A DNA stretch of 64,000 bases from NCBI RefSeq assembly GCF_002797535.1, contig NZ_PGFD01000001.1, forward strand, positions 682,001-746,000, in the 5' to 3' direction. Under the pieces are notes generated by a model that saw only the letters and a program-made list of their open reading frames with translations, did not search any database and had not been told where the DNA came from. Origin of the DNA: Chryseobacterium geocarposphaerae. GTDB taxonomy: Bacteria > Bacteroidota > Bacteroidia > Flavobacteriales > Weeksellaceae. The position numbers and the translations under genes are program-made. Positions within the stretch are counted from its first letter, which is position 1. The number at the start of each line of letters is the position of its first letter. Positions 1,565 through 25,384 of the stretch are shown here, piece by piece.

Positions 1565-1610
1565 TTATGATTGTAATCATAAATTTTGAAAATGTCTTTA
1601 TCTATTTTTG
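1565..1610 (+). promoter_or_regulatory. Fnr-like palindrome plus -7 element upstream of the first Crp/Fnr gene
   Basis: An 18-bp palindrome TTATGATTGTAATCATAA (1565-1582, 8-bp perfect arms) is followed by the Bacteroidetes-type -7 element TATTTTTG (1603-1610). Palindrome centre to first T of the -7 is 29.5 bp, which would place the centre near -41.5. Known class II Crp/Fnr activators bind there. The predicted start near 1615 gives a leader of about 105 nt to the regulator at 1720, suggesting auto- or cross-regulation. Confidence 0.6.
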
Positions 1611-1719
1611 AAACTCGATAAAACGTTATTGTTGAATTAATCAACGATTGCATGGCACATCAATGTAATTCTAATGTTTTTGTTTTATAATTAATAATAA
1701 AACTTTTTAGCCTTCAAAA

Positions 1720-2316
1720 ATGATATTTAATGAAGAAATTTTGCTTTCATTAGGAGCAGAAATGCAAACTTATAAAGCAAATGAGGTAATATTCACGGAA
1801 GGTGGACAGCCTAATTATTTTTTTCAAATAAAACACGGTAGTGTAAAACTGAATAATTACCATGAAGATGGAAGAGAATTTATTCACAGTGTACCTTTTA
1901 AAGGGCATTGCTTTGGAGAGACATTTTTATTTTCGGAGCTTCCATATCCTATCAATGCTATTGCCATTGAAGATTCAGGAATATTAAGGGTTCCTAAACT
2001 TAAATTTCTTGAATTTTTAAAGAAGTGTCCAAAATCCTTATGGACTTTATATATGCATACGGCCGAGAGAATGTACTACAGACATATTATGCTGAATAAT
2101 CTTTCGGTAAGTAATCCTTTATACAGAGTAAGACAGGTAATGGATTGTTTAAAGGCATATCATCAGTATGAAGAGCCTTTTTCCTTTCAGATTCCGTTTA
2201 CCAGACAACAACTGGCTTCACTTACAGGACTAAGGATTGAGACGGTTATAAGAGTGGTGAAAAAAATGGAAAAACAAAAAATGGTAAAAATAGAACTCGG
2301 TAAGATATTTTATTAG
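1720..2316 (+). CDS. Crp/Fnr family transcriptional regulator A
   Basis: A 198-residue regulator: cyclic-nucleotide-binding-like beta-barrel (about 1-115), dimerisation helix, then a C-terminal winged helix. The recognition region reads LTGLRIETVIRVVKKME; the E-T-x-x-R pattern matches the Fnr recognition helix (VETISR), which reads TGAT half-sites. There is no N-terminal Cys cluster for an Fe-S centre, so a direct oxygen-sensing Fnr is unlikely and the ligand is unknown. It is the first of three paralogues in tandem (see 2918 and 3561) that share the start pattern E(E/N)xLLxSxGA. An Fnr-like palindrome promoter precedes it. Confidence 0.85.
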   Translation: MIFNEEILLSLGAEMQTYKANEVIFTEGGQPNYFFQIKHGSVKLNNYHEDGREFIHSVPFKGHCFGETFLFSELPYPINAIAIEDSGILRVPKLKFLEFLKKCPKSLWTLYMHTAERMYYRHIMLNNLSVSNPLYRVRQVMDCLKAYHQYEEPFSFQIPFTRQQLASLTGLRIETVIRVVKKMEKQKMVKIELGKIFY

Positions 2317-2364
2317 CCTTTAAAGATAAGTTAAATATTATGTTTTGTATTTTTTAGTCGATTT

Positions 2365-2411
2365 TTATGATTAAGATCATAAGATAATTAAAGAAAATTG
2401 TATTAAATTTG
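2365..2411 (+). promoter_or_regulatory. Fnr-like palindrome plus -7 element firing into the 2412-2917 gap
   Basis: The palindrome TTATGATTAAGATCATAA (2365-2382, 7-bp arms) lies 30.5 bp (centre to first T) upstream of a perfect TAnnTTTG element, TAAATTTG (2404-2411). Start site predicted near 2416. The next convincing gene begins 500 nt later at 2918, so the product is either a very long leader or a separate RNA or micro-peptide. Confidence 0.6.
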
Positions 2412-2917
2412 AAAATCACACCGCAAAATTTAATATTATGAAATCATTATATTATTCTCAGGGATACGTTTAATTATTGCTGAATAATAAAAATACAATA
2501 TAGAGCGCATCTGTTCGAATGCAGTTATTTATACAGATGTCAGACTACAAGACACTTGATAATTTGGAATAGATTTACTTCTGTATCTGAAGTTTACCAA
2601 AAAGATTCAATGATTCATAAAAGTGATAATAAGTCAGATAATTTTTCTGAATATTTTAACTTTTATGTAATTCTTAGCCTTTATTTTTATAGCCTCTGAT
2701 AACTTTATTTAATGTTGAATTAGATTGAGTTATAAGTATTTGGTGATTTGGTTTTTTTGATAAGGGTTATTGATAATGAGTAATTGCAATTATGATTTAT
2801 GATTTTGATAATTAGGGTTTTAACTTTAATTAACAGCATGAAGGTTTAATATTTGTACTCATTACTCAAAAGTTCCCTGCATTATTTTAAAACATTAAAA
2901 TCATTAAAAAAATTGTT
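2412..2917 (+). other. 506-nt stretch without a convincing gene, downstream of an Fnr-like promoter
   Basis: No recognisable gene. Three tiny ORFs follow the promoter: 2438-2473 (11 codons), 2519-2572 (17 codons) and 2610-2699 (29 codons, sequence not recognised). Two hairpins are visible: CATCTGT (2508-2514) with ACAGATG (2533-2539), and ACTTC (2577-2581) with GAAGT (2589-2593). No T-tailed terminator is obvious, so transcription could read through to the regulator at 2918. A tRNA-like GTTCGAAT at about 2513 has no supporting arms. Confidence 0.4.
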
Positions 2918-3514
2918 ATGGTTATTGAAGAAAATCTGTTGTATTCAATGGGAGCAAGTACTAAAACATATGCGGTCGGAGAGACAATCTTTCTAGAAGG
3001 TGACTGGCCTGCGTTTTATTACCAGATTGTAAAAGGAGAAGTAAAACTTAATAATTACAATGAAGAAGGAAAAGAGACTATACAGATCATGATAGAAGAT
3101 GGTCAGAGTATAGGAGAATCTTTATTGTTTATGGAAAAGTCTTACCCAATGAATGCGGTGGCGATCACTGAATGTGAAGTCATTAAGCTCCCTCGAAAAG
3201 CATTCATCAGTTTATTGAAAGAAGATGCGGAAATTTCTTACGAAATGAACAAATGTCTTTCTCAAAGATTGTATTTTAAGCTGATCATGACTCAAAATCT
3301 TTCTTCACAAAATCCTATACTAAAGCTTATTGCGCTTATGGATTATCTGAAAAGTTTTGCAAAGGATCAGAAGCAGTATTCATTTAAGGTTCCATTGACC
3401 AGGCAACAAATGGCAGGACTTACCGGACTCTGTGTTGAAACCACAATACGGACCATAAAAGGGATGGAAAAAAGCCAAATCCTTAAAATAGAAGATCGTA
3501 AAATCATGTATTAA
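2918..3514 (+). CDS. Crp/Fnr family transcriptional regulator B
   Basis: Second of three tandem paralogues, 198 residues, with the same effector-domain and winged-helix layout. The recognition region reads LTGLCVETTIRTIKGME: it keeps the E-T-x-x-R pattern, but a Cys replaces the Arg found just before it in paralogues A and C, so specificity or redox response may differ. No Fe-S Cys cluster is present. It probably forms one transcript with regulator C, 46 nt downstream. Its own promoter is uncertain; a one-mismatch -7 (AATATTTG, 2848-2855) lies about 60 nt upstream of the ATG. Confidence 0.85.
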   Translation: MVIEENLLYSMGASTKTYAVGETIFLEGDWPAFYYQIVKGEVKLNNYNEEGKETIQIMIEDGQSIGESLLFMEKSYPMNAVAITECEVIKLPRKAFISLLKEDAEISYEMNKCLSQRLYFKLIMTQNLSSQNPILKLIALMDYLKSFAKDQKQYSFKVPLTRQQMAGLTGLCVETTIRTIKGMEKSQILKIEDRKIMY

Positions 3515-3560
3515 TCTAAATTAAAATTAATAACTGGAAGTAATGAAGATAAAAAGCTGT

Positions 3561-4157
3561 ATGAATATCGAAGAATCACTTTTGTATTCATTTGGTGCAG
3601 AGACAAAATTTTTTAAAAAAGGTGAAGTGGTCTTTAGGGAAGGAGATCAGGTTCTGTATTATTTCCAGGTCGTGGAAGGAAAAATAAAGCTGAACAATTA
3701 TAACGAAGAGGGTAAGGAATTTATTCATAATATTTTAGGAAAGAATCAAAGTTTTGGAGATTCTCTGATTTTTTTAGACAAACAATATCCGATGAATGCA
3801 ACCTGCTTATCTCCAACCGAGCTTATAAGACTTCCTAAAAATAACTTTTTGGAAATGCTGGAGAAAAATCCGGATATTTCAATTGAAATGAATCATTGCT
3901 TATCGCAACGGTTATATTATAAAATGGTAATGATCCAGAATATGGCGTCCTCGAACCCTGCAGTAAGATTGAAAGGATTATTGAATTATCTTAGAAGTTT
4001 TCATCATGATGATTGTGACCATTGCTTTTCTGTGGAGCTTACCAGACAGCAGATTGCCAATTTAGTGGGACTTCGTGTAGAAACGGTCATAAGAGCATTA
4101 AAGAAAATGGAGCAAGAAGGAGTCATTAAAATTCACAACAGGAAAATTTTATATTGA
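3561..4157 (+). CDS. Crp/Fnr family transcriptional regulator C with a His/Cys-rich hinge
   Basis: Third tandem paralogue, 198 residues from the ATG at 3561 (MNIEESLLYSFGAE), which aligns with the starts of A and B; an upstream in-frame ATG at 3543 would add six residues. The recognition region reads LVGLRVETVIRALKKME. Just before the winged helix it carries HHDDCDHC, where the paralogues have HQYEEPFS-like and KDQKQYS-like residues. That cluster could bind a metal or respond to redox; this is inference from residue pattern only. An Fnr-like promoter and a candidate small RNA follow directly. Confidence 0.85.
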   Translation: MNIEESLLYSFGAETKFFKKGEVVFREGDQVLYYFQVVEGKIKLNNYNEEGKEFIHNILGKNQSFGDSLIFLDKQYPMNATCLSPTELIRLPKNNFLEMLEKNPDISIEMNHCLSQRLYYKMVMIQNMASSNPAVRLKGLLNYLRSFHHDDCDHCFSVELTRQQIANLVGLRVETVIRALKKMEQEGVIKIHNRKILY

Positions 4158-4166
4158 TAAATCCGA

Positions 4167-4211
4167 TATGACTCAAGTCATAAATAAGTGAATTATTAAG
4201 CCGTATATTAG
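4167..4211 (+). promoter_or_regulatory. Fnr-like palindrome plus -7 element of a candidate small RNA
   Basis: The palindrome TATGACTCAAGTCATA (4167-4182, 7-bp arms, core TGAC/GTCA) is 29.5 bp (centre to first T) upstream of TATATTAG (4204-4211), which matches TAnnTTTG except one base. It starts 9 nt after the stop codon of regulator C and points toward a short terminated transcript. Confidence 0.5.
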
Positions 4212-4215
4212 ATTA

Positions 4216-4294
4216 CTATTTTAAAGCATTAATATAATACACACCACTTAAATATAGTAAAGTCATATAGGTTGTATTCTATATGACTTTTTTT
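4216..4294 (+). ncRNA. Candidate small RNA, about 79 nt
   Basis: Predicted from context: an Fnr-like class II promoter upstream (start near 4216) and a strong intrinsic terminator (4259-4294). No open reading frame of useful length lies between them. It would leave the downstream gene at 4358 outside this transcript. An alternative is a terminated leader for that gene with conditional read-through. No RNA family was recognised. Confidence 0.4.
4259..4294 (+). terminator. Intrinsic terminator of the candidate small RNA
   Basis: A 12-bp stem, AAAGTCATATAG (4259-4270) with CTATATGACTTT (4279-4290), has an 8-nt loop and runs into an uninterrupted T tract (4288-4294). Confidence 0.75.
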
Positions 4295-4357
4295 CTGACT
4301 ATAGATGATAAACGAATAGAAATAGAATCCAAATCAATTACTTAAAAAAAGAACGCG

Positions 4358-4906
4358 ATGGAATTTCATAAAAAACTTCTGGAATATATTGGTCAGTCAC
4401 TAATGACTGCAGATGAAACAATTTCGGTTGCCGAAAGTGTAACCTCGGGATGTTTACAGCTGGCTCTTTCTCAGATACCTAATGCATCATTAATTTATAA
4501 AGGAGGAATGACAGCCTATACTTTACCCATGAAGGTAAACTTACTGAACGTGGATCAGGAAGAAGCGGAGAAATGCGACTGTGTTTCGGAAAATATTGCA
4601 GAAACAATGGCCCTGAATGTTGCAAAACTCTACGAAACCGATTGGTCGATTGCCACAACAGGCTATTGTACGCCTATCAGAAATTCATCCTACAAAATAT
4701 TCGCTTTCTTTTCATTTTCTTACAAAGGAGAAATCATCCATACCGGAAAACTGGAACTGCACCCCAAAACCCAAGCCCTGAATGCCCAATTATATTACAC
4801 TGAATTTATTTTGGGGTGCTTTAAAACAGAAGTCAGTAAAGCTAGGGATGTACAATCAAGATTACAATTGAAAATAAATGGAAATGAAAGAATTAAAGTT
4901 AGCTAA
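4358..4906 (+). CDS. CinA-family protein (PncC-like NMN amidohydrolase domain)
   Basis: 182 residues covering the CinA C-terminal domain alone. The family signature AESVTSGCLQLAL (about residues 25-37) and the following YKGGMTAYT segment are present. Stand-alone members such as PncC deamidate nicotinamide mononucleotide in pyridine-nucleotide salvage, which would remake the NAD precursor released by NAD-dependent ligases. The last 20 or so residues extend beyond the usual domain end. It sits between an RNA terminator and ku; function in repair is not shown. Confidence 0.8.
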   Translation: MEFHKKLLEYIGQSLMTADETISVAESVTSGCLQLALSQIPNASLIYKGGMTAYTLPMKVNLLNVDQEEAEKCDCVSENIAETMALNVAKLYETDWSIATTGYCTPIRNSSYKIFAFFSFSYKGEIIHTGKLELHPKTQALNAQLYYTEFILGCFKTEVSKARDVQSRLQLKINGNERIKVS

Positions 4907-5001
4907 CAAATCGGTTCTTATTCTTTTAAAATAAAGCATTTATACTAATTTAATCAATTTGGAAAGGGTTTTGTACTCTACCATACAAAAAAATAGAAAA
5001 T

Positions 5002-5781
5002 ATGAGAGCGATCTGGAATGGAGCAATAGGTTTTGGATTGGTAAATATACCGATCAAGCTGTACTCGGCCAGTGAATCGAGTACGTTGGATCTGGATATG
5101 CTGGATAAAAAAGATCTCAGTAATATCAAATACAAAAGAGTCAATGAAAACACCAACAAAGAAGTCGCCTGGGAAAATATTGTAAAAGGCTACAAAATAG
5201 AAGATAAATATATCGTGTTGGAAGAGGAGGACTTTGAAGCAGTAAGTCCTGAAAAATCAAAAATTCTCAGCATTTTACAATTTGTAAAAGAAGAAGAAGT
5301 GGATCCTGCTCTTTTTGAAACTCCCTATTTCCTGGAGCCCCAAAAAAACGGCGAAGCGGCTTACAAACTTTTACTTAAAGCTTTAACAAAAACCAGAATG
5401 GCAGGAATAGGCTCCTTTATTTTGAGAGAAAGAGAAATTCTGTGTATGATTCGCCCTTATCAGGATGAGATTCTTATGGTGAACAGGATGAGGTTTCCTG
5501 AAGAAATGAGAAATTATGAAGATTTGAAAATCCCATCAGGAAAAGCACCGAAAACAGAAGAACTGAAAATGGCTGAAGCACTGATCAAATCGCTCGCTGA
5601 GCCTTTCGATCCTACAAGATATAGAGATACTTACAATGAAGACCTTTTGAAAATTATACGACAGAAAGCAAAAGGCAAACGGGTAAAAACTAAAGAAATA
5701 AAAGAACCGGCAGGAAAAGCTACGGACCTTATGGCCATGCTAAAAGCCAGTCTTGAGTCAGGAAAGAGAAAAGCAGGATAA
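5002..5781 (+). CDS. ku: Non-homologous end-joining protein Ku
   Basis: 259 residues with the bacterial Ku start MRAIWNGAIGFGLVNIPIKL and the later RTRMAGIG-like region (KTRMAGIGSFILRER). The Ku core forms the ring-shaped homodimer that binds double-strand DNA ends and recruits ligase D. The C-terminus is Lys-rich (about residues 215-259), as in many bacterial Ku proteins. It lies 31 nt upstream of the ligD region, the usual NHEJ pairing. Confidence 0.95.
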   Translation: MRAIWNGAIGFGLVNIPIKLYSASESSTLDLDMLDKKDLSNIKYKRVNENTNKEVAWENIVKGYKIEDKYIVLEEEDFEAVSPEKSKILSILQFVKEEEVDPALFETPYFLEPQKNGEAAYKLLLKALTKTRMAGIGSFILREREILCMIRPYQDEILMVNRMRFPEEMRNYEDLKIPSGKAPKTEELKMAEALIKSLAEPFDPTRYRDTYNEDLLKIIRQKAKGKRVKTKEIKEPAGKATDLMAMLKASLESGKRKAG

Positions 5782-5812
5782 ATTTTTTTGTTTAAACTTT
5801 AAATTTTTTAAC

Positions 5813-6424
5813 ATGCCATTAGAAGAATATCATAAAAAGAGAGATTTTAAGGCAACTTCCGAACCGGAAGGCAAAGAAAAGGAAAGTAAGGCCAAATTAA
5901 AATTTGTAATCCAGCGGCATGCGGCATCGCGTTTACATTATGATTTCAGATTGGAAATGGATGGAGTTCTTAAAAGCTGGGCCGTTCCGAAAGGTCCATC
6001 CCTTAATCCTGCTGATAAAAGATTAGCCATGATGGTGGAAGATCATCCGTATGAATACCGGACATTTGAAGGAAGCATTCCCAAAGGAAATTATGGAGCC
6101 GGAGAAGTTGAAATCTGGGACGAAGGAACCTATGAACCCATAGAAAAAATAAAAGGCAAGACTGATGATTTGGTTATGCGTGCAGAACTGCACAAGCAAT
6201 CTCTGAAATTTATCTTACATGGTAAAAAACTGAAAGGTGAATTTGCCTTGGTAAAAATCAAAAACAGTACAGAAGAAAACGCATGGTTGCTCATCAAGCA
6301 TAAAGACCGTTATGCTGTCGATGAAGACTATGACGCTGAAGAACATACTTCTAAGAATTCTAAAGTTACCGCTTATCTTCAGGAAAAGAGCAGTAAAAAA
6401 AAAATGATACCACCGAAAGCCTGA
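5813..6424 (+). CDS. ligD: DNA ligase D, 3'-phosphoesterase part (split from the rest by a frameshift)
   Basis: 203 residues from the ATG at 5813 (MPLEEYHKK). It holds the LigD phosphoesterase domain: RHAASRLHYDFRLE (His36, His42, Asp44), VEDHPYEY (His78) and SIPKGNYGAGEVEIWDEG. The domain trims 3' ends before ligation. The frame ends at TGA 6422-6424 just after an uninterrupted run of ten A residues (6395-6404). One additional A would join it without a stop to the ligase/polymerase frame, giving a single protein of about 849 residues, the usual PE-ligase-polymerase LigD. The gene is therefore either frameshifted, misread at the homopolymer, or expressed through slippage. Confidence 0.85.
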   Translation: MPLEEYHKKRDFKATSEPEGKEKESKAKLKFVIQRHAASRLHYDFRLEMDGVLKSWAVPKGPSLNPADKRLAMMVEDHPYEYRTFEGSIPKGNYGAGEVEIWDEGTYEPIEKIKGKTDDLVMRAELHKQSLKFILHGKKLKGEFALVKIKNSTEENAWLLIKHKDRYAVDEDYDAEEHTSKNSKVTAYLQEKSSKKKMIPPKA

Positions 6425-6468
6425 AGCACTATAAAAATTATACAAAAGCACTTTCTCTGGACAGGAAA

Positions 6469-8361
6469 TTGTCTGATTTTATCAGACCAATGCTCTGCAA
6501 AACAATCGAAAAACCTTTTGACGACAAAGACTGGGCTTTCGAAATAAAATGGGACGGCTACAGAGCGATTGGAGATATCAGGAATGATGAAATCCGGCTG
6601 TATTCAAGGAATGGAATGGATTTTTCGAAATCATTTAAAAAAATTGCTGATGCTCTTACAATTCAGAAGCATGATATGATCGTAGACGGTGAAATTGTTG
6701 CTTATGATGACAAAGGAAAACCTAACTTTCAGTGGTTGCAAAGAATCGCTGAGAAAAATACGGATTTGGTTCTTATTTACCAGATTTTTGATTTGTTATG
6801 GCTGAATGGCCATTCTACAGAAAATCTTTCTTATCTGCAACGAAAAGAACTGCTGAAGGAAGCATTGGTAGAAAATGAAATTATCAGATATCATGACCAT
6901 ATTCTTGAAAAGGGAAAAGACTTTTTTCAGGCCGCTGAAAATATGGGACTGGAAGGAATTATTGCTAAAAAAGCAGACAGTGAGTATAAAGAAAATACCA
7001 GAAGCTCAGAATGGCTGAAAATAAAAATTCATAAGAGCGATGAAGCCGTAATCTGCGGTTTTACAGAACCTAAAGGATCAAGAAAACAGTTTGGATCACT
7101 TATTCTGGGGAAATATCTGAATAATGAACTTGTTTTTTGCGGACATACCGGAACAGGTTTTACAGATAAAAGCCTTAAAGAGATCTACCAGAAAATGGAA
7201 CCCTTTATCACGAAAGAATCTGCATTTGAAGTCACTCCCAAAACCAATACAAAAGCAACATGGCTAAAGCCTGAATTGATTGCTGAAATAAAATTTACGG
7301 AGCTTACCAAAGATCATATTTACCGACATCCTGTCTTTTTAAGATTAAGAGAAGATATAGATCCTATTGATGTAAAATTTGATACTGACTTACCTGAAAA
7401 AAACCCGGAAATGAAACCCAAAACCTCCACAAAAAAACAACCTGCAGCGGACCGCGTAAAAAAAATAGGAAAACAACAGGTGACCCTTACCAATCAAAAT
7501 AAGCTCTATTTTCCTGAAGATGATATTACTAAAGGAGATGTGATTGATTATTATCAGAAAATCGCCAAATTTATTCTACCTCATCTGAAAAACCGTCCGC
7601 AGTCGCTTAACCGTTTTCCGAATGGAATTGAAGGGCTTAGTTTTTACCAGAAAGATGCGGATGAGCATACTCCGGATTGGGTAACATTACAGAAAATATT
7701 CTCCGAGAGTAATGACAAATACATCAATTATATTATTTGTAATGACAAGGAAACTTTAGCCTATCTGAATAATTTAGGCTGTATCGAACTCAATATCTGG
7801 ACAAGCCATATACCGAAAGTGGATTATCCGGACTATTTGGTCCTGGATCTTGATCCTTCCGAAAAAAATACATTTGAAGATGTCATTGAAACGGCATTAG
7901 CGGTAAAAGAAGTTTTGGATAAAGCAGGTATTGTTGGTTATCCGAAAACTTCCGGAAGTTCCGGCATACATATTTATATTCCTATGGGCGGAAAATATAC
8001 TTATGATCAGGTAAAGGATTTTGGTCATGTACTGATGCAGCTTGTTCAGCAGGAGCTCCCTGAACTTACAACACTGGAAAGAAGTCTTCAAAAAAGAGAT
8101 AAAAATAAGATTTACCTGGATTACCTGCAGAACAGAAGAGCGCAGACTTTAGCAAGCGTGTACAGCTTACGTCCTAAACCGGGAGCACCGGTCTCTGCGC
8201 CATTAGACTGGAAAGAAGTGAAAAAAGGACTTCTTCCTACAGACTTTACCATACACAATATGCCGGAACGATTGCAGGAAAAAGGGGATCTGTTCAAACC
8301 TGTGCTGGGAAAAGGGATTGATCTTTTAAAAACCATAAAGAAATTAGAAAACCTAGAATAA
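6469..8361 (+). CDS. ligD: DNA ligase D, ATP-dependent ligase and polymerase part
   Basis: 630 residues if started at the TTG at 6469; the frame is open back through 6400, so this start is probably an artefact of the split. The ligase domain comes first, with the adenylation motif EIKWDGYR (Lys27), then the OB fold. From about residue 340 comes the LigD primase-polymerase domain, with the metal-binding LDLDP motif and the SGSSGIHIYIP segment. Together with Ku it fills and seals double-strand breaks. It ends 14 nt before the convergent pdeM gene. Confidence 0.9.
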   Translation: MSDFIRPMLCKTIEKPFDDKDWAFEIKWDGYRAIGDIRNDEIRLYSRNGMDFSKSFKKIADALTIQKHDMIVDGEIVAYDDKGKPNFQWLQRIAEKNTDLVLIYQIFDLLWLNGHSTENLSYLQRKELLKEALVENEIIRYHDHILEKGKDFFQAAENMGLEGIIAKKADSEYKENTRSSEWLKIKIHKSDEAVICGFTEPKGSRKQFGSLILGKYLNNELVFCGHTGTGFTDKSLKEIYQKMEPFITKESAFEVTPKTNTKATWLKPELIAEIKFTELTKDHIYRHPVFLRLREDIDPIDVKFDTDLPEKNPEMKPKTSTKKQPAADRVKKIGKQQVTLTNQNKLYFPEDDITKGDVIDYYQKIAKFILPHLKNRPQSLNRFPNGIEGLSFYQKDADEHTPDWVTLQKIFSESNDKYINYIICNDKETLAYLNNLGCIELNIWTSHIPKVDYPDYLVLDLDPSEKNTFEDVIETALAVKEVLDKAGIVGYPKTSGSSGIHIYIPMGGKYTYDQVKDFGHVLMQLVQQELPELTTLERSLQKRDKNKIYLDYLQNRRAQTLASVYSLRPKPGAPVSAPLDWKEVKKGLLPTDFTIHNMPERLQEKGDLFKPVLGKGIDLLKTIKKLENLE

Positions 8362-8375
8362 AAATGAAACCAAAA

Positions 8376-9023: not shown

Positions 9024-11482
9024 TTTCTTCTGTTTTTCTTTTTCAAATTGGCTTCCTGCATCTTATGAATTCTTGAAGCTAAATCTTCACTGGATAAGGA
9101 TTGTCGCAGGCTATCCACTTTTATAGGAAAGCTCAGAGGCGTAAAGCGGTCGGAATGAATATAAATGATTTTACTCTGATGAATCCTCTCAAAAGCAGCG
9201 GTCAGTCTTACTTCTTCCAATTGCTGATTAAAGACTTCAGTATAAGCCTGGCGAAGCAATAAATTTTCGGGATCATAGTCTTCTAAAACAGAAAAGATTA
9301 TGCCTGAAGAAGATTGCAATGATTTGTTGTTTACCTGTCTTCCCGGCATTGTTTGAATGACCATTCCGGAAATTACGGCAATATCGCGAAATTTTCTTCT
9401 TGCCATCTCCGTTGAATTAACGCTGCTGATCACATCTTGCATCAGATTTTCCTTGGAGAGAATAAGATGAAGTTCATCTTTAGACAATTTAATTTCTTTA
9501 TCCGAAAATAGCTCAAAACCATAATCATTCATCGCCATTGAAAAACTGATAGGATATAATTTTGAAATTCTATATGCTATCAGAGCAGCCATTACTTCAT
9601 GTACCAAACGACCTTCAAAAGGGTAAAAGAATAAATGATTGCCTTGCCGGGTTTTGATCTGTTCCACCAAAAACTCGTCCTCCTTCGGAATATGTGAATT
9701 TTCATTTTGATTCACCAATAAAGGGTGTAGAAATTTCAACTCCTTTTCTTTAGAATGAGGAGTTAAAGATTCAGCTAACTTTTTTCTTAAAAAGAAACTA
9801 AGATTGGAAGAAAGCGGTAATCTTCCGCCTAACCAGCTTGGTGTAATGGCTTTACCACTGGATAGTCTTACATATACCGTCATTTCTTTCAGCATTACAT
9901 ACTCTAAAATCCGACCTGCCAGAACAAATTTATCGCCTTTATGAAGCTTTGAAATAAAATATTCTTCAATCATTCCAATATAACCACCCGACAAAAATTT
10001 TACCCTCAGCATCGAATCACTGACGATAACGCCAATATTCATGCGGTGAAGCATGGCAATTTTTCTTTTTTCAACAACCAGTTTTCCATCATCCTCCTCA
10101 ACAACTTTATGAAATTCTTCATAGTTTTTTCCCGTTTTTCCACCTTGTGTAATGAAATAGATACACCATTGCCATTCTTCTTGTGTAAGTTCGGAAAAAG
10201 CATAGGTGTTTTTAATGACAGGAAATAGTTCATCAGCATAAAATCCACCTCCTAAAGCCAGTGTAACAAGAAACTGTACCAAGACATCATAAGCTAGAAT
10301 GAAAGGTTCACGTTTTTCGATTATTTTATTTTTTACTGCTTCTTTCAATGCCGAAACTTCAATGAGTTCTAAGGAATGGGTAGGTACGAAATAAATGGTA
10401 GAGGTTTCAAACGGTGAATGTCCGCTTCGTCCTGCACGCTGCATAAAACGGGCAACTCCTTTGCTGGAACCAATTTGAATTACGGTATCTACAGGTTTAA
10501 AATCCACCCCCAGATCCAAAGATGAGGTAGAAACAACTGCTTTTAATGCACCTGAATTAAGGTTTTCTTCTACCCACTGTCGTAAAGGAGCCTCAATAGA
10601 ACTATGATGAAGTGCAATCTGCCCCGCAAAATCCGGGTATGCTTCTAACAATAACTGATACCACATCTCTGCCTGACTCCGTGTATTGGTAAAAACAAGT
10701 GTGGATTTTGATTTAAGAATAACAGGAACTACTTCCTGTACCAGTTTGCCTCCCAAATGTCCTGCCCATGGTAAAATCTCAACTTCAGGAGGATATACGG
10801 ATAAAATATCAATTTTCTTCTTTTCTTTAGCTAATACTTTTGTTCTCTTTTTAGAATCAGGAATCAGAACATCTAAAGCTTCTTCAAGATTTCCGATGGT
10901 TGCAGTAATGCCCCAAATTCTGATCCTGGGATTTCTATGTTTTAAAACAGCCAATGCCAGTTCTACCATCACGCCTCGTTTGGTGCTCAACAATTCATGC
11001 CATTCGTCAACCGCGATGCATTTTGCATTTTTAAAAAAGCGCTGATTGTCTTTTTGAGCCATCAGAAGATGCAGGCTTTCGGGAGTTACAAGCAAAATAT
11101 CGGGCATTTCCTTGCTTTGTCTTTGCTTTTGTTTGGCATCAGTATCACCGTTTCTTACTTCCACGATCCAGTCTAAGCCAATTTCATTAATAGCCTCTTG
11201 CATTGCTCTTGCCAGATCTTTTGCCAAGGAACGAAGGGGAGTAATCCAAAGGAGCTTTAATCCTGTCTTATAGTGTTCAGGATGATTAAAAAAATCGATA
11301 AGGACGGCAATAAAAACTGAGTACGTTTTTCCAAAACCTGTCGGAGCAACCACCATTCCTGAATAGCCGTTGGAAAAGCGTTGCCATGTCTCTTTCTGAA
11401 AAGAAAAAGGCGACATTCCTTTATCATTCAGCCATTTTTGAATGAGCCGGAAACCTTCGGATTGCTCAAATTTTAATGTCAC
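9020..11482 (-). CDS. Ligase-associated DNA damage response DEXH box helicase (Lhr-like)
   Basis: 820 residues with two RecA-like domains: Walker A APTGFGKT (about residue 45), a DEWH box (VDEWHELL), the SAT-like motif GITATIG and motif VI FMQRAGRSGHS, followed by an Lhr-type C-terminal region. Lhr family enzymes are 3'-5' ssDNA translocases that unwind DNA:RNA or DNA duplexes. It overlaps its ligase neighbour by 4 nt and pdeM by 4 nt, which indicates translational coupling. Confidence 0.92.
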   Translation of the reverse strand: MTLKFEQSEGFRLIQKWLNDKGMSPFSFQKETWQRFSNGYSGMVVAPTGFGKTYSVFIAVLIDFFNHPEHYKTGLKLLWITPLRSLAKDLARAMQEAINEIGLDWIVEVRNGDTDAKQKQRQSKEMPDILLVTPESLHLLMAQKDNQRFFKNAKCIAVDEWHELLSTKRGVMVELALAVLKHRNPRIRIWGITATIGNLEEALDVLIPDSKKRTKVLAKEKKKIDILSVYPPEVEILPWAGHLGGKLVQEVVPVILKSKSTLVFTNTRSQAEMWYQLLLEAYPDFAGQIALHHSSIEAPLRQWVEENLNSGALKAVVSTSSLDLGVDFKPVDTVIQIGSSKGVARFMQRAGRSGHSPFETSTIYFVPTHSLELIEVSALKEAVKNKIIEKREPFILAYDVLVQFLVTLALGGGFYADELFPVIKNTYAFSELTQEEWQWCIYFITQGGKTGKNYEEFHKVVEEDDGKLVVEKRKIAMLHRMNIGVIVSDSMLRVKFLSGGYIGMIEEYFISKLHKGDKFVLAGRILEYVMLKEMTVYVRLSSGKAITPSWLGGRLPLSSNLSFFLRKKLAESLTPHSKEKELKFLHPLLVNQNENSHIPKEDEFLVEQIKTRQGNHLFFYPFEGRLVHEVMAALIAYRISKLYPISFSMAMNDYGFELFSDKEIKLSKDELHLILSKENLMQDVISSVNSTEMARRKFRDIAVISGMVIQTMPGRQVNNKSLQSSSGIIFSVLEDYDPENLLLRQAYTEVFNQQLEEVRLTAAFERIHQSKIIYIHSDRFTPLSFPIKVDSLRQSLSSEDLASRIHKMQEANLKKKNRRK

Positions 11483-17237: not shown

Positions 17238-17267
17238 TTTGATATTTATTTTATTTTACTACATTTG
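17238..17267 (+). promoter_or_regulatory. Promoter of the sigma/anti-sigma operon
   Basis: TTTG (17238-17241) and a perfect TAnnTTTG element, TACATTTG (17260-17267), are separated by 18 nt, matching the Bacteroidetes housekeeping promoter. The predicted start near 17272 lies downstream of the TTG at 17239, so translation cannot begin there from this promoter. Confidence 0.6.
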
Positions 17268-17283
17268 GAAAAAATATCCCACT

Positions 17284-17832: not shown

Positions 17833-17833
17833 A

Positions 17834-18643: not shown

Positions 18644-18704
18644 ATCATAATTTCAATAAGTTAAGACAGAATTTTATTAAATACTTAAAACTAATTAGTT
18701 TTAT

Positions 18705-18743
18705 AAAAAACGTTCAGTTGTATATTACAACTGAACGTTTTTT
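18705..18743. terminator. Strong bidirectional intrinsic terminator
   Basis: A near-perfect stem joins CGTTCAGTTGT (18711-18721) and ACAACTGAACG (18727-18737), flanked by A6 on the left and T6 on the right, with a 5-nt loop. It ends the sigma/anti-sigma operon. Confidence 0.88.
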
Positions 18744-18821
18744 GTTACAAGCTTGTTCTAATGCCAATTTTAATTTATAGAAACTAATAAAAGGATATTT
18801 ATAACCTTTATTTATTATTAT

Positions 18822-18841
18822 TTAGTATATTTGTGTACTAA
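18822..18841 (+). promoter_or_regulatory. Promoter with overlapping inverted repeat upstream of the carotenoid operon
   Basis: A perfect -7 element TATATTTG (18826-18833) lies inside the inverted repeat TTAGTA (18822-18827) / TACTAA (18836-18841). The arrangement fits a repressor operator blocking RNA polymerase. The first gene encodes a MarR-type repressor, so autorepression is the simplest reading (inference). The start near 18838 leaves a leader of about 15 nt. Confidence 0.55.
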
Positions 18842-18852
18842 TTTATAAGTTT

Positions 18853-19521: not shown

Positions 19522-19523
19522 TC

Positions 19524-20996
19524 ATGAATAAAAAAATAGCCATTATCGGTTCAGGATTTTCCGGTTTGTCTTCAGCTGCTTATCTGGCAAAAGAAGGGAA
19601 TGAAGTTCATGTGTTTGAAAAAAACAGCAATGTGGGTGGAAGAGCAAGACAATTCAGAACTGAAGAAGGCTATGCTTTTGACATGGGTCCGAGCTGGTAC
19701 TGGATGCCGGATATTATTGAATCGTTTTTTGAGGATTTTGGAAAAAAATCATCTGATTTTTATGAACTGGTCAGGTTGGATCCTCAGTTTGAAATGGTCT
19801 TTTCTGATGGAATCATGAGTATTCCGGACAGTTATGAGGAAATGGTTGTTTTATTCGAAAAAATGGAAAAGGGAGCAAGAAAGAGGCTCGAGAGTTTTAT
19901 GAAAGACGCTCAGGTTAAATATGAGGTCGGAATGAAAGATTTCGTTAATAAACCGTGTCATTCATGGCTAGAATTTGTTTCCCCAAAAATGGCAGCAAAT
20001 GCATTAAAACTGGACTTGCTAAGTAGTTTTAGCAAGTTTGTGAGGAAATATTTCAAACATCCTAAGCTCATCGCGTTGATGGAGTTTCCTGTCATCTTTT
20101 TGGGAGCGGCACCATCAAAAATTCCTGCGCTGTATAGTCTTATGAACTACGGAGGATATAAACTGGGGACCTGGTATCCAATGGGAGGTTTTTCAAAAGT
20201 GACCGAAGCCATGATGCAGATAGGAAAAGATCAGGGAGTACATTTTCATTTTAATTCGACGGTTGAAAAAATTAATGTTGAAAATGATAAAGCTCATGCA
20301 ATACAAGTGAATGGTGAAGAACAGTATTTTGATATTATTATAGCTTCATCAGATTATCATCATACGGAAAGTAAGCTTCTTCCTCCGAATAGCAGAAATT
20401 ATGCTTCTTCCTATTGGGAAAAGAAAACATTTGCTCCTTCTTGTCTCATTTATTATTTAGGAATTAAAGGGAAAATTCCTAATCTGAAGCATCATACGCT
20501 TTTCTTCGAAAATGAGCTTGAATTACATACTCATGAAATTTATGAAGATAAAAAATGGCCCACAAAACCATTATTCTATTCTTGTTGCCCGTCCAAGACC
20601 GATCAAACGGTTGCTCCTGAAAACTGTGAAAATGTATTTCTTTTAATGCCTGTAGCTCCCGGAATAGAAGATTCTGAAGAAATAAGAGAAAAATATTTCC
20701 ATGAAATGATCCGAAGGCTGGAAAACCATACCGGAAGTTCTGATATCCTGTCAAGAATAGAGTATAAAAGAAGTTATTGCATCAATGATTTTAAAGAAGA
20801 TTACAATGCCTACAAAGGAAATGCTTATGGTCTAGCCAATACGTTATCTCAAACGGCAGTTTTAAAACCTTCAATCAGAAATAAAAAAATTAAAAACCTG
20901 TTGTATACCGGCCAACTTACAGTTCCCGGACCCGGAGTTCCACCATCTATAATTTCCGGTAAAATAGCAGCAAATGAAGCCCGCAAAATAAATTAA
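19524..20996 (+). CDS. crtI: Phytoene desaturase family protein
   Basis: 490 residues. The N-terminal FAD-binding motif IGSGFSGLSSAAYLA is followed by VGGRAR, and the C-terminal FAD segment by LLYTGQLTVPGPGVPPSI. CrtI desaturates phytoene to lycopene. Gene order (MarR, crtI, crtB, SRPBCC, crtZ, crtY, photolyase) with 2-nt spacers supports carotenoid synthesis. Length is typical for CrtI. Confidence 0.93.
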   Translation: MNKKIAIIGSGFSGLSSAAYLAKEGNEVHVFEKNSNVGGRARQFRTEEGYAFDMGPSWYWMPDIIESFFEDFGKKSSDFYELVRLDPQFEMVFSDGIMSIPDSYEEMVVLFEKMEKGARKRLESFMKDAQVKYEVGMKDFVNKPCHSWLEFVSPKMAANALKLDLLSSFSKFVRKYFKHPKLIALMEFPVIFLGAAPSKIPALYSLMNYGGYKLGTWYPMGGFSKVTEAMMQIGKDQGVHFHFNSTVEKINVENDKAHAIQVNGEEQYFDIIIASSDYHHTESKLLPPNSRNYASSYWEKKTFAPSCLIYYLGIKGKIPNLKHHTLFFENELELHTHEIYEDKKWPTKPLFYSCCPSKTDQTVAPENCENVFLLMPVAPGIEDSEEIREKYFHEMIRRLENHTGSSDILSRIEYKRSYCINDFKEDYNAYKGNAYGLANTLSQTAVLKPSIRNKKIKNLLYTGQLTVPGPGVPPSIISGKIAANEARKIN

Positions 20997-20998
20997 CT

Positions 20999-21835
20999 AT
21001 GAAAAAATTGTTTGACGACCTTTCTTACAAAGTGAGCAGAGAAACAACCAGGCTGTACAGCACAAGCTTTTCTCTGGGAATAATGGCACTTTCGCCTAAA
21101 CTGAGAAATCCTATATATGCCATTTATGGATATGTACGCCTTGCCGACGAAATTGTAGACAGCTTTCATGCTTATGATAAGCAAAAGCTTTTGTCACGGT
21201 ATAAACAGGAGACTTTTCAGGCTCTGGAAGATGGAATCTCACTCAATCCCATCTTACAGTCATTTCAGGAAACGGTGCATAAATATAAAATTGATCACAG
21301 TCTCATTCACCAGTTTCTGAAAAGCATGGAAATGGATCTCCAGAAGATTGATTATAATTCTGATTTGTATAAGGAATATATTGTAGGATCTGCTGAAGTT
21401 GTAGGACTTATGTGTCTTCATATTTTTACAGAAGGAAACCCCAAAGAGTTTGAGCGGTTGAAATCCTATGCAATGATCTTGGGATCAGCATTTCAGAAAG
21501 TCAATTTTCTTAGGGATATGAAAGATGATTATCAGATCTTAGGACGATGCTATTTTCCGAATGTGGATATTTCTTATTTTGATAATACTGTAAAAGCTCA
21601 TATTGAAAAAGAAATAGAAGAAGAATTCCAAATAGCATTGCAGGGCATTAAAAAGCTTCCCAGCTCTTCAAGATTCGGTGTTTATCTGGCCTTTAGATAT
21701 TATACTTCATTGTTCAGAAAAATAAAAAGAACTTCTGCCAATGAAATGATCAACCGAAGAATAAGAATATCCAACGGGAAGAAGCTGTCTGTAATGATGA
21801 GCAGCTATTTCCAGTACAAAACTTCTTTTTTATAA
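20999..21835 (+). CDS. crtB: Phytoene synthase (squalene/phytoene synthase family)
   Basis: 278 residues. Two Asp-rich prenyl-binding motifs are visible: ADEIVDS (about 43-49) and LRDMKDDYQ (about 176-184). It condenses two geranylgeranyl diphosphates to phytoene. It is 2 nt after crtI, so the two enzymes are probably coupled. Confidence 0.92.
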   Translation: MKKLFDDLSYKVSRETTRLYSTSFSLGIMALSPKLRNPIYAIYGYVRLADEIVDSFHAYDKQKLLSRYKQETFQALEDGISLNPILQSFQETVHKYKIDHSLIHQFLKSMEMDLQKIDYNSDLYKEYIVGSAEVVGLMCLHIFTEGNPKEFERLKSYAMILGSAFQKVNFLRDMKDDYQILGRCYFPNVDISYFDNTVKAHIEKEIEEEFQIALQGIKKLPSSSRFGVYLAFRYYTSLFRKIKRTSANEMINRRIRISNGKKLSVMMSSYFQYKTSFL

Positions 21836-21855
21836 TATAATACCTTAGTAAAGCC

Positions 21856-22344
21856 ATGGTACATACAATTTATAAAAAACAGCAGCTGAATTGTGATATC
21901 GAAGAGGCCTGGAAATTTTTTTCTTCAGCAAACAATCTTGCGATCATCACACCACCTGAAATGAATTTTACGGTGCTTACCAAAATGGAAGATGATGAAA
22001 TTTTTGAAGGGATGATCATTGATTATTATGTTTCGCCTATAATGGGAATAGAAATGAAATGGAAAACGGAAATTACCCATGTTGATTTTCAAAAAAGCTT
22101 TACCGATTTCCAGAAAAAAGGGCCGTATAAACTTTGGAACCACCATCATGAGTTTATAGTTAATGATTACGGAGTATTTATGAAGGATGTTGTAAAGTAT
22201 GAGCTTCCTTTCGGCTTTTTAGGCGAAATTGCCCATAAATTATTTGTCAGAAAAAAGCTTGAGCATATTTTCAATTACCGATATAAGGTCTTAGAAGAAC
22301 TATTTAATACCAAAAAAAATTATGAATTTACTGATCGTTCTTAG
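21856..22344 (+). CDS. SRPBCC-fold protein in the carotenoid operon
   Basis: 162 residues with the START/polyketide-cyclase-like start (CDIEEAWKFFSSANNLAIITPPEMNF) and a closing helix (HKLFVRKKLEHIF). The fold binds hydrophobic ligands; a role in carotenoid handling is inferred from its place between crtB and crtZ. It overlaps crtZ by 23 nt. Confidence 0.8.
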   Translation: MVHTIYKKQQLNCDIEEAWKFFSSANNLAIITPPEMNFTVLTKMEDDEIFEGMIIDYYVSPIMGIEMKWKTEITHVDFQKSFTDFQKKGPYKLWNHHHEFIVNDYGVFMKDVVKYELPFGFLGEIAHKLFVRKKLEHIFNYRYKVLEELFNTKKNYEFTDRS

Positions 22345-22780
22345 TACATTTCTCATCATGGAAGGAATGACGTGGTGTATTCATAAATATATTATGCATG
22401 GTTTTTTATGGAGCTTGCATAAAGATCATCACGATCATAGCAACCATGGTCCTATGGAAAAAAATGATTACTTTTTTCTGATCTTTGCGCTGCCTACCAT
22501 AGCGCTGATGTATTACGGAACTTTACAGAACTTTAATTTTTGGTTCTATATAGCAGTAGGTATAGCATTGTACGGAATGGCTTATTTCTTTGTTCATGAT
22601 ATTTTTATCCATCAGAGGCTGAAGATTCTTCGAAATACCAAAAATCCTTATCTGCTTGCCATAAGAAGAGCCCATAAACAGCATCATAAACATACAAGAA
22701 AAGAAAAAGGGGAGTGCTTCGGCTTTCTGTGGGTTCCTATACAGTATTTTAAAATGTATTTTAATAAAAGTAAAGCCTGA
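22322..22780 (+). CDS. crtZ: Beta-carotene hydroxylase (sterol desaturase superfamily)
   Basis: 152 residues, membrane-embedded. The di-iron histidine clusters are HKYIMH, HKDHHDH, HDIFIHQR and HKQHHKH, as in CrtZ. It would hydroxylate beta-carotene to zeaxanthin, consistent with yellow flavobacteria. The start overlaps the end of the SRPBCC gene, a sign of coupling. Confidence 0.9.
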   Translation: MNLLIVLSTFLIMEGMTWCIHKYIMHGFLWSLHKDHHDHSNHGPMEKNDYFFLIFALPTIALMYYGTLQNFNFWFYIAVGIALYGMAYFFVHDIFIHQRLKILRNTKNPYLLAIRRAHKQHHKHTRKEKGECFGFLWVPIQYFKMYFNKSKA

Positions 22781-22782
22781 TA

Positions 22783-23475
22783 ATGCAGCAATATACCTAT
22801 CTTTTAATTGATTTTTGTACAGTAATTATCTGTTTTATTTTTTCATTTCATCCTAAAATAAAGTTCAACAGACACTTTACCGCCTTTTTGAAAGCTTCGT
22901 GTATAGTGGCTTCAGTATTCATTGTATGGGATATCTGGTTTACACAAAAAGGAGTTTGGTGGTTTAATGATACTTATCTTTTAGGAATCCGGATATATAA
23001 TCTTCCGGTTGAAGAGATTCTGTTCTTTTTCTGTATTCCCTTTTCATGTATTTTCACCTACTTCTGTATAGATAAATTTTTTACGCTAGATTGGAATCCT
23101 TTGCCTGAAAAAGCTTTTGTTTGTCTATCGATTATTTCTTCACTGTTCATAGCTTTCTATTCTCATGATAAGATTTATACTTTAGTAACTTTTGCTTCCA
23201 CGGCGGTTAGTATTTTTATCCTCTATTTTGTGTTAAAGTCGAGGTGGATTGGTAAAGCATCACTTATATATCTTTTTCTGATGCCTGGTTTTTTTGCAGT
23301 AAACGGAATACTTACGGGAACAGGTCTGGAATCTCCCGTTGTCAATTACAATCCACAGGATTTCCTGGGTATCAGAATGCTTACAATACCCATTGAAGAT
23401 ACAGTGTATGGATATGAAATGATTTTATGGAACATCTTTTTATTTCAAAAATTTAAAAATAATGAGCAAGATTAA
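22783..23475 (+). CDS. Lycopene cyclase domain membrane protein
   Basis: 230 residues with about seven hydrophobic segments and two copies of the CarR-type lycopene cyclase repeat, each around a PVEE/PIEDT motif (LPVEEILFFF; IPIEDTVYGY). Such heterodimeric-type cyclases fused in one chain convert lycopene to beta-carotene. Two nt separate it from crtZ and it overlaps the photolyase by 14 nt. Confidence 0.9.
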   Translation: MQQYTYLLIDFCTVIICFIFSFHPKIKFNRHFTAFLKASCIVASVFIVWDIWFTQKGVWWFNDTYLLGIRIYNLPVEEILFFFCIPFSCIFTYFCIDKFFTLDWNPLPEKAFVCLSIISSLFIAFYSHDKIYTLVTFASTAVSIFILYFVLKSRWIGKASLIYLFLMPGFFAVNGILTGTGLESPVVNYNPQDFLGIRMLTIPIEDTVYGYEMILWNIFLFQKFKNNEQD

Positions 23476-24742
23476 TGTTTTCTGGTTCAGGAGAGATCTT
23501 AGGCTCGAAGATAATGCGGGGCTGTATCATGCTTTACAATCAGGAAACAAAGTGTTGCCTGTATTTATATTTGATACGGAGATTTTAGATCTTCTTCAGG
23601 ATAAATCCGATAAAAGAGTAGATTATATCCAGCAGGCTTTGAATAGTTTAGATAAAGAACTGAAAATCTATAACAGTGGTCTTAAAACATATTACGGAAA
23701 ACCTATTGATATTTTTAAACAGCTTACAGAAGAGTTTGAAATTGACACCGTATTTTGTAACAGAGATTACGAACCACAAGCTATAAAAAGAGACAAGCAA
23801 ATAGCGGATTTTCTTCAAAAAAATGGAGTTGGATTTTTAGATTTTAAAGATCAGGTGATATTTGAAAAAAATGAAATCCTCAAAAGCGACCAGTCTCCAT
23901 ATACCATTTTCACTCCCTATTCAAAAAAGTGGAAGGAGAACTTACAATCTGTTGATGAATACAGATCTGACTTCAGCAATTTTATTCAGTTGAAAAACTC
24001 TTTAGAGATTCTCAGCCTGGAGGAGATTGGTTTTAAGAAAACAGAAGTAAACTTTACAAAACCTTCAATTGACAGAAAGATCATTGATTCTTATCAGCAA
24101 TACAGGGATTTTCCGGCTTTAGACCATACTACACATCTAGGGATTGCCCTTCGTTTTGGGACGGTTTCTATAAGGAAATGTGTGGAATTTGCTCTTGAGC
24201 ATAGTGATACTTGGCTTAATGAGTTGATATGGAGGGAGTTTTTTATGCAGATTCTATTTCATTTTCCTGATGTGGTGGCTCATTGTTTCAAGAAAAAATA
24301 CGAGAGCATCAATTGGCGAAATAATGAAGAAGAATTTAAAGCCTGGTGCGAAGGAAAAACCGGTTATCCTATTGTGGATGCAGGAATGCGTGAGCTTAAT
24401 GAAACGGGTTTTATGCATAACAGGGTCAGGATGATTGTGGCAAGCTTTCTTACCAAACATCTGCTCATTGACTGGCGATGGGGAGAAGCTTATTTTGCAC
24501 AAAAGCTGTTAGATTATGATCTTTCTGCCAATAATGGAAACTGGCAATGGGCGGCAGGATGCGGATGTGATGCTGTTCCCTATTTCAGAATTTTTAATCC
24601 CGAAGAGCAAACCAAAAAGTTTGATAAAAACCATGTCTATATTAAAAAATGGCTAACAAATTATGATCAGCCAGCTCCTTTAGTTGAGCATAAATTCGCC
24701 AGAGAACGTGCGTTGGAAACCTATAAGAAAGCCCTTACTTAA
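23462..24742 (+). CDS. phrB: Deoxyribodipyrimidine photolyase
   Basis: 426 residues. An N-terminal antenna domain (FWFRRDLRLEDN) is followed by the FAD-binding catalytic domain, with the characteristic GNWQWAAGCGCDAVPYFRIF and the NEL.WREFF-type region. It repairs UV-induced cyclobutane dimers using blue light. Its position at the end of the carotenoid operon links pigment and light repair. Class cannot be fixed from sequence alone. Confidence 0.92.
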   Translation: MSKINVFWFRRDLRLEDNAGLYHALQSGNKVLPVFIFDTEILDLLQDKSDKRVDYIQQALNSLDKELKIYNSGLKTYYGKPIDIFKQLTEEFEIDTVFCNRDYEPQAIKRDKQIADFLQKNGVGFLDFKDQVIFEKNEILKSDQSPYTIFTPYSKKWKENLQSVDEYRSDFSNFIQLKNSLEILSLEEIGFKKTEVNFTKPSIDRKIIDSYQQYRDFPALDHTTHLGIALRFGTVSIRKCVEFALEHSDTWLNELIWREFFMQILFHFPDVVAHCFKKKYESINWRNNEEEFKAWCEGKTGYPIVDAGMRELNETGFMHNRVRMIVASFLTKHLLIDWRWGEAYFAQKLLDYDLSANNGNWQWAAGCGCDAVPYFRIFNPEEQTKKFDKNHVYIKKWLTNYDQPAPLVEHKFARERALETYKKALT

Positions 24743-24846
24743 GCTTATTATAACAAAACCCCTCTATTGAGGGGCAAAAAATAATAATGCTGGAAATAAA
24801 GTGATGATATTGAGATTAAAGTTAAAACAAGATGTAAACTTCCTCC

Positions 24847-24891
24847 TATGATTCAAATCATAAGATGCAATAAAATGAATAAATATCTTTG
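24847..24891 (+). promoter_or_regulatory. Fnr-like palindrome plus -7 element, first copy
   Basis: TATGATTCAAATCATA (24847-24862, 7-bp arms, core TGAT/ATCA) is 29.5 bp (centre to first T) upstream of TATCTTTG (24884-24891), a perfect TAnnTTTG. The predicted transcript would start near 24896 and meet a terminator at 24934-24955. Confidence 0.65.
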
Positions 24892-24895
24892 CATA

Positions 24896-24955
24896 AGATA
24901 AATTTTTTGTTGGAGGAAACTCTGATTAGACAGGCACTCATTAGAGTGCTTTTTT
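24896..24955 (+). ncRNA. Candidate small RNA, about 60 nt
   Basis: It lies between an Fnr-like class II promoter and a terminator hairpin, GCACTC (24934-24939) / GAGTGC (24944-24949), followed by T6 (24950-24955). An upstream ACTCT (24919-24923) can pair with AGAGT (24943-24947), competing with the terminator, so an attenuator is also possible. No ORF of note is present. Confidence 0.45.
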
Positions 24956-25066
24956 CATATATCAGAATCAGCAGGTAAAATACCTCCTCAGAAGAGGAGG
25001 ATAGATAGATAATGCTGGAATAGATATGAATGATATTTATAAAGGTAAATAGATCATAAAGGCAGA

Positions 25067-25115
25067 GTTTATGATTCAAGTCATAAACAAAAAGATTATT
25101 AAAGAAATATCTTTG
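25067..25115 (+). promoter_or_regulatory. Fnr-like palindrome plus -7 element, second copy
   Basis: GTTTATGA...TCATAAAC (25067-25088, 8-bp arms) is 30.5 bp (centre to first T) upstream of TATCTTTG (25108-25115). The start predicted near 25120 leaves a leader of about 94 nt to the membrane protein at 25214. Confidence 0.65.

Positions 25116-25210: not shown

Positions 25211-25384
<174 letters not shown>

Follow-up and report, generated by a model that had tools for sequence, protein, structure and literature searches.

A probable Crp/Fnr regulon with class II promoter spacing and predicted short RNAs in Chryseobacterium

The stretch analysed here, 64,000 nucleotides of Chryseobacterium geocarposphaerae (contig NZ_PGFD01000001.1, positions 682,001 to 746,000; hereafter the window), carries three tandem genes for Crp/Fnr-family regulators (crp1 to crp3), a cinA-type gene behind them and, further downstream, a gene for a small membrane protein, and five copies of one palindrome lie among these genes (Table 1). 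The common palindrome of all five sites reads TATGAY-N4-RTCATA, and each copy is followed by a -7 box of the type TAnnTTTG, exact in four cases and with one mismatch at site 3. From the palindrome centre to the first T of the box, the distances at sites 1 to 5 are 29.5, 30.5, 29.5, 29.5 and 30.5 bp. An earlier note on this DNA had described these palindromes, boxes and distances, and every one of them was confirmed when read again base by base. A scan of the window for the palindrome with at most one mismatch gave 6 matches, 5 of them exact, whereas 100 dinucleotide shuffles of the window averaged 0.72 matches and never exceeded 3. As judged from the sequence, the five sites are not chance occurrences but real members of a well-supported regulon of the Crp/Fnr class II type. 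We consider it probable that this regulon is genus-wide, that a multi-copy Crp/Fnr subfamily drives it by class II activation, and that its outputs are stress and low-oxygen genes together with short RNAs.

Table 1. Sites, genes and predicted transcripts in the window (positions are those of the window)
Feature	Position	Strand	Remark
Site 1 palindrome TATGATTGTAATCATA	1566..1581	+	base-by-base reading and pattern scan; exact at the same place in relatives G028 and G085
Site 1 -7 box TATTTTTG	1603..1610	+	with the palindrome, predicted crp1 promoter
crp1	1720..2316	+	Crp/Fnr-family regulator, 198 aa, VETVIR-type subfamily
Site 2 palindrome TATGATTAAGATCATA	2366..2381	+	
Site 2 -7 box TAAATTTG	2404..2411		
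Remnant of small lipoprotein gene	2438..2473	+	11 codons, behind site 2; matches the gene start in G028
crp2	2918..3514	+	VETVIR-type subfamily
crp3	3543..4157	+	VETVIR-type subfamily
Site 3 palindrome TATGACTCAAGTCATA	4167..4182	+	
Site 3 -7-like box TATATTAG	4204..4211		one mismatch
Hairpin and T run	4259..4294	+	terminator-like, between site 3 and cinA
cinA-type gene	4358..4906	+	PncC domain; 147 nt after the site 3 box
Site 4 palindrome TATGATTCAAATCATA	24847..24862	+	
Site 4 -7 box TATCTTTG	24884..24891		
Predicted 60-nt RNA behind site 4	24896..24955	+	start inferred from the box position
Site 5 palindrome TATGATTCAAGTCATA	25070..25085	+	
Site 5 -7 box TATCTTTG	25108..25115		
DUF5670/lmo0937-family membrane protein	25214..25384	+	56 aa; predicted site 5 target

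In the accessible text of PMC9723704, the sigma-A box TAnnTTTG of Flavobacterium psychrophilum is placed at -12 to -5. With this box position borrowed from another genus, the palindrome centre falls at -41.5 or -42.5, the class II position, at which an activator near -41.5 overlaps the -35 region; the class II geometry proposed in the earlier note is thus borne out by 29.5 and 30.5 bp to a box that starts at -12. The position directly following the palindrome, near -33, is occupied by A at a frequency of 0.78-0.80 in 201 exact sites, and no TTG was seen there. We propose that a dimer of the VETVIR-type Crp/Fnr proteins described below would bind TATGAY-N4-RTCATA centred at -41.5 or -42.5 and would activate, in the class II manner, sigma-A promoters that have the TAnnTTTG box and lack the usual -33 box. 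Since Crp/Fnr proteins can repress, the sites might instead be operators at which the dimer blocks RNA polymerase at -41.5, and the sites carried by the regulator genes are compatible with negative feedback of this kind. A repressor, however, needs no fixed class II spacing, whereas two preferred distances to the -7 box, with no -33 box, fit activation; we consider repression very unlikely.

The same arrangement recurs outside the window. The pattern TGAYN4RTCA-N{8,38}-TAnnTTTG, which allows 31 gap values, gave 31 matches in the C. geocarposphaerae genome against 1 for the reversed pattern used as control, and 12 of the 31 fell at the window's two gaps, which are 2 of the 31 values. The longer palindrome, in its exact form, gave 4 + 4 matches at those two gaps, and these fall in two clusters only, the window and C1:1.595-1.611 Mb. 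Across the genus, the exact pattern is present in 132 of 148 Chryseobacterium genomes, with a total of 513 matches against 11 in the reversed control. Among 150 of the 513 matches that were listed, 123 have a gap of 21 or 22 between palindrome and box, which we call canonical, and 27 have other gaps; the reversed control at gaps 21 and 22 alone gave 0 matches in 35 genus genomes picked for having matches. That the window sites reflect chance or a shared AT-rich sequence is hardly credible: weak matches are indeed common in this genome, but the shuffle and reversed controls and the spacing peak refute chance for the exact sites. In a sample of the phylum, 41 of 247 genomes had a match. Among the matches listed, canonical gaps account for 39 of 48 in a second family belonging to the order; elsewhere in the class the share is 4 of 8, and in the remaining phylum 2 of 13. 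By these shares, the promoter rule reaches the order and fades beyond it. Within that second family, sites recur from genome to genome, and their spacers and boxes are alike. As a separate observation, 8 of the 150 genus matches listed have a gap of 31, with the palindrome ten bases further upstream and near-identical sequence in several genomes (for example G002:C1:313146, G070:C46:196816 and G144:C1:2713132); these are possibly a second promoter geometry or sites of another regulator.

The likely reader of the palindrome is found in the window itself. The C. geocarposphaerae genome has 12 loci with a Crp-type helix domain, 11 of them above the family cut-off, and seven of these paralogues form one subfamily, with 39-57% identity to Crp4, whereas the other five reach 14-20%; three of the seven lie in the window. 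Crp1 to Crp3 match PF00027 and PF13545 above cut-off, which places them in the Crp/Fnr superfamily, and they fall below the cut-off of every NCBIfam model matched. The subfamily has a recognition helix of the form [VIL]-E-T-[VT]-[IV]-R (VETVIR type) and a C-terminal KIxY. The earlier note had pointed to an E-T-x-x-R recognition helix, as in Fnr, in the tandem proteins, and that helix is there on reading the sequences; the likeness does not extend to the box, whose half-site is ATGAY and not TTGAT, or to the N-terminal cysteine cluster, which is absent from all seven paralogue sequences (Crp3 has a single cysteine at residue 6). The helix letters of FNR are E-T-I-S-R, and the E-x-x-S-R with which FNR reads TTGAT is replaced in the subfamily by E-T-[VT]-[IV]-R. 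Nor is ATGAY the TGTGA of CRP. Arg82-Ser83 of CRP is the cAMP phosphate anchor, and it aligns with Tyr-Pro in the subfamily profile, so that this anchor is missing here. Because there is no N-terminal cysteine cluster, the box is not that of FNR and the Arg-Ser of CRP is lacking, an oxygen signal is not established.

The distribution of the subfamily follows that of the sites. Its profile was found in 141 of 148 genus genomes at E<=1e-25, and the number of copies correlates with the number of site matches (Spearman 0.62), from a mean of 0.6 matches with no copy to 6.0 with nine or more. The seven genomes without the subfamily have four pattern matches, at gaps of 20, 28, 18 and 11 and hence none canonical; in the 22 other genomes of the same search, 50 of the 55 matches listed are canonical. 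This co-occurrence of gene and motif names the VETVIR-type subfamily as the likely reader. Another FNR-like protein of the C. geocarposphaerae genome (C2:825021-825842, helix TESAIR) might read the palindrome, with the VETVIR-type paralogues merely sharing its targets; its helix is also of the E-x-x-x-R form, and one site of that genome precedes a lipoprotein gene and then cbb3 oxidase genes. This protein is, however, kept in all seven genomes without the subfamily, at 88-99% identity, and since these have no canonical exact site it does not suffice. In four of the seven the match starts at residue 19-20, and a 241-aa open frame still covers the protein from an inner start codon. We consider this protein an unlikely reader. 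Strong lineage-specific expansion of the subfamily was also observed, with 17, 14 and 13 profile matches in genomes G102, G091 and G141.

What the sites front was surveyed in a census of 223 unique exact sites derived from the pattern, drawn from part of the listed matches and excluding loci anchored on crp3. Of these sites, 47 have a terminator at 45-80 nt, and 144 others have an open reading frame (ORF) within 450 nt. The largest group of ORFs comprises small lipoproteins (42, assigned by eye), most of them about 22 nt after the box, followed by the Crp subfamily itself (23), KGG proteins (13), a 101-aa protein without a Pfam match (7), catalase (3, by eye) and DUF2383 (3); the single cases include a cbb3 oxidase (by eye), an SdhB-type iron-sulphur protein and a PHA synthase subunit. 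With site 1 in front of crp1 and 23 of 223 sites in front of a subfamily gene, the auto-regulation and the Flavobacteriia regulon suggested in the earlier note gain support from sequence. The second cluster of the genome (1.595-1.611 Mb) holds a zinc alcohol dehydrogenase, a fourth crp and two small lipoproteins (by eye), one lipoprotein gene followed by cbb3-type oxidase genes (COX1, FixO), and also KGG, DUF892, catalase and CinA. The outputs would accordingly range over the regulators themselves, small lipoproteins, KGG, DUF892, KatE, cbb3 oxidase, DUF5670 and CinA.

Within the crp trio locus, not every site need still be in use. The closest named loci in our comparison, from which the own genome or very near records were perhaps excluded, are those of Chryseobacterium artocarpi, C. 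taiwanense and C. tagetis. The C. artocarpi locus runs SDR, site, crp1, site, crp2, crp3, site, KGG, DUF892, KatE, CinA, SDR, Ku, LigD, and the equivalent of site 3 (G085) has the box TACATTTG and then KGG, DUF892 and KatE. The window has no DUF892 or KatE gene between crp3 and cinA; the homologues that served as queries lie at 1.606-1.611 Mb in the same genome, behind sites of their own. The lipoprotein gene behind the equivalent of site 2 is longer in G028 and C. taiwanense and is also short and broken-looking in C. artocarpi. The five-site regulon of the earlier note stands as far as the sites are real, but sites 2 and 3 may be relics of genes no longer present or now located elsewhere; for site 3, cinA may still be a target. 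The terminator-like hairpin behind site 3 may be where the crp3 transcript or a short RNA ends. We treat site 3 as no more than a candidate small-RNA promoter, given its box mismatch and a hairpin that is possibly the crp3 terminator.

Short RNAs are a further predicted output, and the one behind site 4 is a target missing from the earlier note. It consists of a U-rich 5' part, a hairpin UUGGAG-GAAA-CUCUGA and a terminator GCACUC..GAGUGC-U6, and it is predicted to fold into two hairpins at -17.0 kcal/mol (z -3.5). In 98 genomes it has five strong matches in four genomes (two in one) and weak partial matches in eight more. Both hairpins are kept in the five copies; since 0 of 17 predicted pairs show a two-sided change, they rest on conservation and not on covariation. 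More generally, an intrinsic terminator follows the box at 45-80 nt in 50 of 283 unique exact sites against 9 of 282 antisense, and in an earlier count the figures were 27 of 201 for the sites, 4 of 201 for the antisense side and 15 of 1500 for TAnnTTTG boxes elsewhere in these loci, of which there are 1531. We propose that RNAs of 55-70 nt would be made at roughly a fifth of the examined sites, ending at the intrinsic terminator, with site 4 among these. Three families, A, B and C, have RNA identities of 0.85, 0.95 and 0.93, with promoter spacer identities of 0.52, 0.71 and 0.69. Family B, searched by RNA sequence alone, was found in 23 of 148 genus genomes, the own genome being without it; all 23 copies have the palindrome and box upstream at the right gap (22 exact, 1 with one mismatch), against 8 exact in 2000 random windows of the same loci and none at one or two mismatches. 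The 14 rows aligned, of 23, all have its core TTCATATTTCT without variation.

These terminated transcripts could also arise by premature termination, as leaders or as by-products, from promoters that serve a gene further on. A same-strand ORF, in some cases short and doubtful, lies within 1 kb for 35 of the 50 terminator rows, and the DUF5670 gene starts 322 nt beyond site 4, though with site 5 of its own; the other 15 rows have no such ORF within that distance, as far as the stretch examined reaches. Moreover, the RNA is conserved above the promoter spacer, and in the 60 nt after the terminator identity drops to 0.35 and 0.36 in families A and B (0.85 in family C). We regard this alternative as rather unlikely and favour short RNAs as products in their own right. 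Rfam gave no match at gathering level in the window, and nine of the loci with such RNAs or KGG leaders gave three tRNAs only. Among the 28 body families into which the 50 RNAs fall, 6 contain the k-mer TTTGCA, where 0.32 were expected and 300 shuffles reached no more than 2; 5 contain TTTCATC, with 0.57 expected and a shuffle maximum of 5, before any multiple-test correction. Start regions reading GAUGAAA are a conceivable, if weakly supported, pairing partner of TTTCATC. On the model of FnrS, the short RNAs would probably act by pairing with mRNAs.

The system recalls several known ones. With FNR of E. coli it has in common the Crp/Fnr fold, the E-T-x-x-R helix, the TGAY-N4-RTCA core, a centre at -41.5 and, we infer, targets of the low-oxygen type such as cbb3 oxidase; it differs in having no N-terminal cysteine cluster, an ATGAY half-site, a Bacteroidota -7 box and seven paralogues in one genome. 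DNR (3dkw) is the best single-sequence PDB match of Crp3, and the best full-length matches of a profile of all seven paralogues are CRP chains. The boxes TTGATnnnnATCAA (DNR), TTGACnnnnGTCAA (HcpR) and GTAACnnnnGTTAC (HcpR2), as given in the accessible part of PMC1274295, have the palindrome plan in common with this motif and differ from it in their bases. FnrS belongs to the FNR regulon and represses more than 30 mRNAs, according to the accessible text of PMC8139620. The RNAs here resemble FnrS as short RNAs from a promoter in an FNR-type regulon, and they differ in matching nothing in Rfam at gathering level, in their length of about 60 nt and in forming many unlike families in one genus. 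For F. psychrophilum, the accessible text of PMC9723704 reports conserved small RNAs (Rfp18 and others), the independent RNAs having a median of 176 bp; these are alike as conserved Flavobacteriia small RNAs, the two sets being compared by description only, and the main text available contains none of the words Crp, Fnr and palindrom. The literature found on Crp/Fnr in Flavobacteria, Chryseobacterium and Elizabethkingia, on stress or HcpR and on Chryseobacterium small RNAs, in the parts accessible and with most subscription papers outside its coverage, describes neither this motif nor these RNAs; for FnrS-type small RNAs of anaerobic Bacteroidetes, literature of the same coverage gave only stool RNA profiles. 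Set against known class II Crp/Fnr activation, this regulon stands apart in its half-site, its multi-copy subfamily without Fe-S cysteines and its unusual share of predicted short RNAs.

Among the outputs, KGG, DUF892, KatE, DUF5670/lmo0937 and DUF2383 are families linked to the RpoS and SigB general stress regulons. The likeness to those regulons lies in these genes; the difference is that here Crp/Fnr activator sites before a sigma-A type box take the place of an alternative sigma factor. To our knowledge, Bacteroidota have no RpoS- or SigB-type sigma factor. A bolder proposal, which we put forward tentatively and at slightly less than even odds, is that the expanded Crp/Fnr subfamily with its rigid class II grammar runs the stress and low-oxygen response in place of such a sigma factor, and that its main arm would be fast-evolving RNAs of about 60 nt, a Bacteroidota counterpart of FnrS arising many times in one regulon. 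Few regulons have been defined in Bacteroidota, as far as we know. The promoter rule of this one is exact and searchable and yields predictions, near-exact in their ends, for dozens of short RNAs, and it makes both stress-gene control and the existence of Crp/Fnr-driven small RNAs in Bacteroidota directly testable.

Several points weigh against a genus-wide regulon of this kind. At up to 3 mismatches, the excess in the own genome is modest (57 against 34 and 57 against 33 in the reversed control, one scan per gap), so that weak sites were not trusted and exact sites were relied on. The control by genome scan proposed in the earlier note is in this sense passed by the exact sites and less clear for the weak ones, and a regulon list from the 3-mismatch scan was dropped for the same reason; a one-mismatch site at 911366, preceding a 603-aa ORF that looks by eye like a TonB-dependent receptor, was not used. 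The correlation between copies and sites ignores the kinship of the genomes, 12 of 51 genomes with 1-3 subfamily copies have no site, and identities suggest that the seven genomes without the subfamily fall into few groups. The sites of the output census are a non-random sample, and 32 of the 223 have neither a near ORF nor a terminator. Orthologous RNAs were counted once per genome, the 28 body families share little sequence, and the conserved flank of family C weakens the case of that RNA.

Some further observations concern the neighbourhood of the sites. The KGG mRNA leader (about 150 nt; L092:6635-6784 on the - strand, and leaders in 23 loci) contains a conserved hairpin, AUUGCyGUC-UAAUACUAGUC-ACGGnnnGCAAU. 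A selection of 12 from the 22 distinct rows has 96.9% of the cells of the hairpin's 8 pairs paired, with two-sided changes in 2 pairs; Rfam gave no match for the leader in L092 or L138. Behind the crp trio and cinA, the window carries Ku and a gene with a LigD 3'-phosphoesterase domain (5002-6424), an order kept in the loci of five relatives (L136, L138, L143, L144 and L145, of which L138 and L143 look like the same genome). In a third cluster of the own genome (L232:7810-8916 and 10869-11465), an ORF that looks by eye like SDR stands behind a one-mismatch site, and a sixth subfamily crp precedes an ORF that looks by eye like LigD; this echoes the SDR-crp-Ku-LigD layout of the window.

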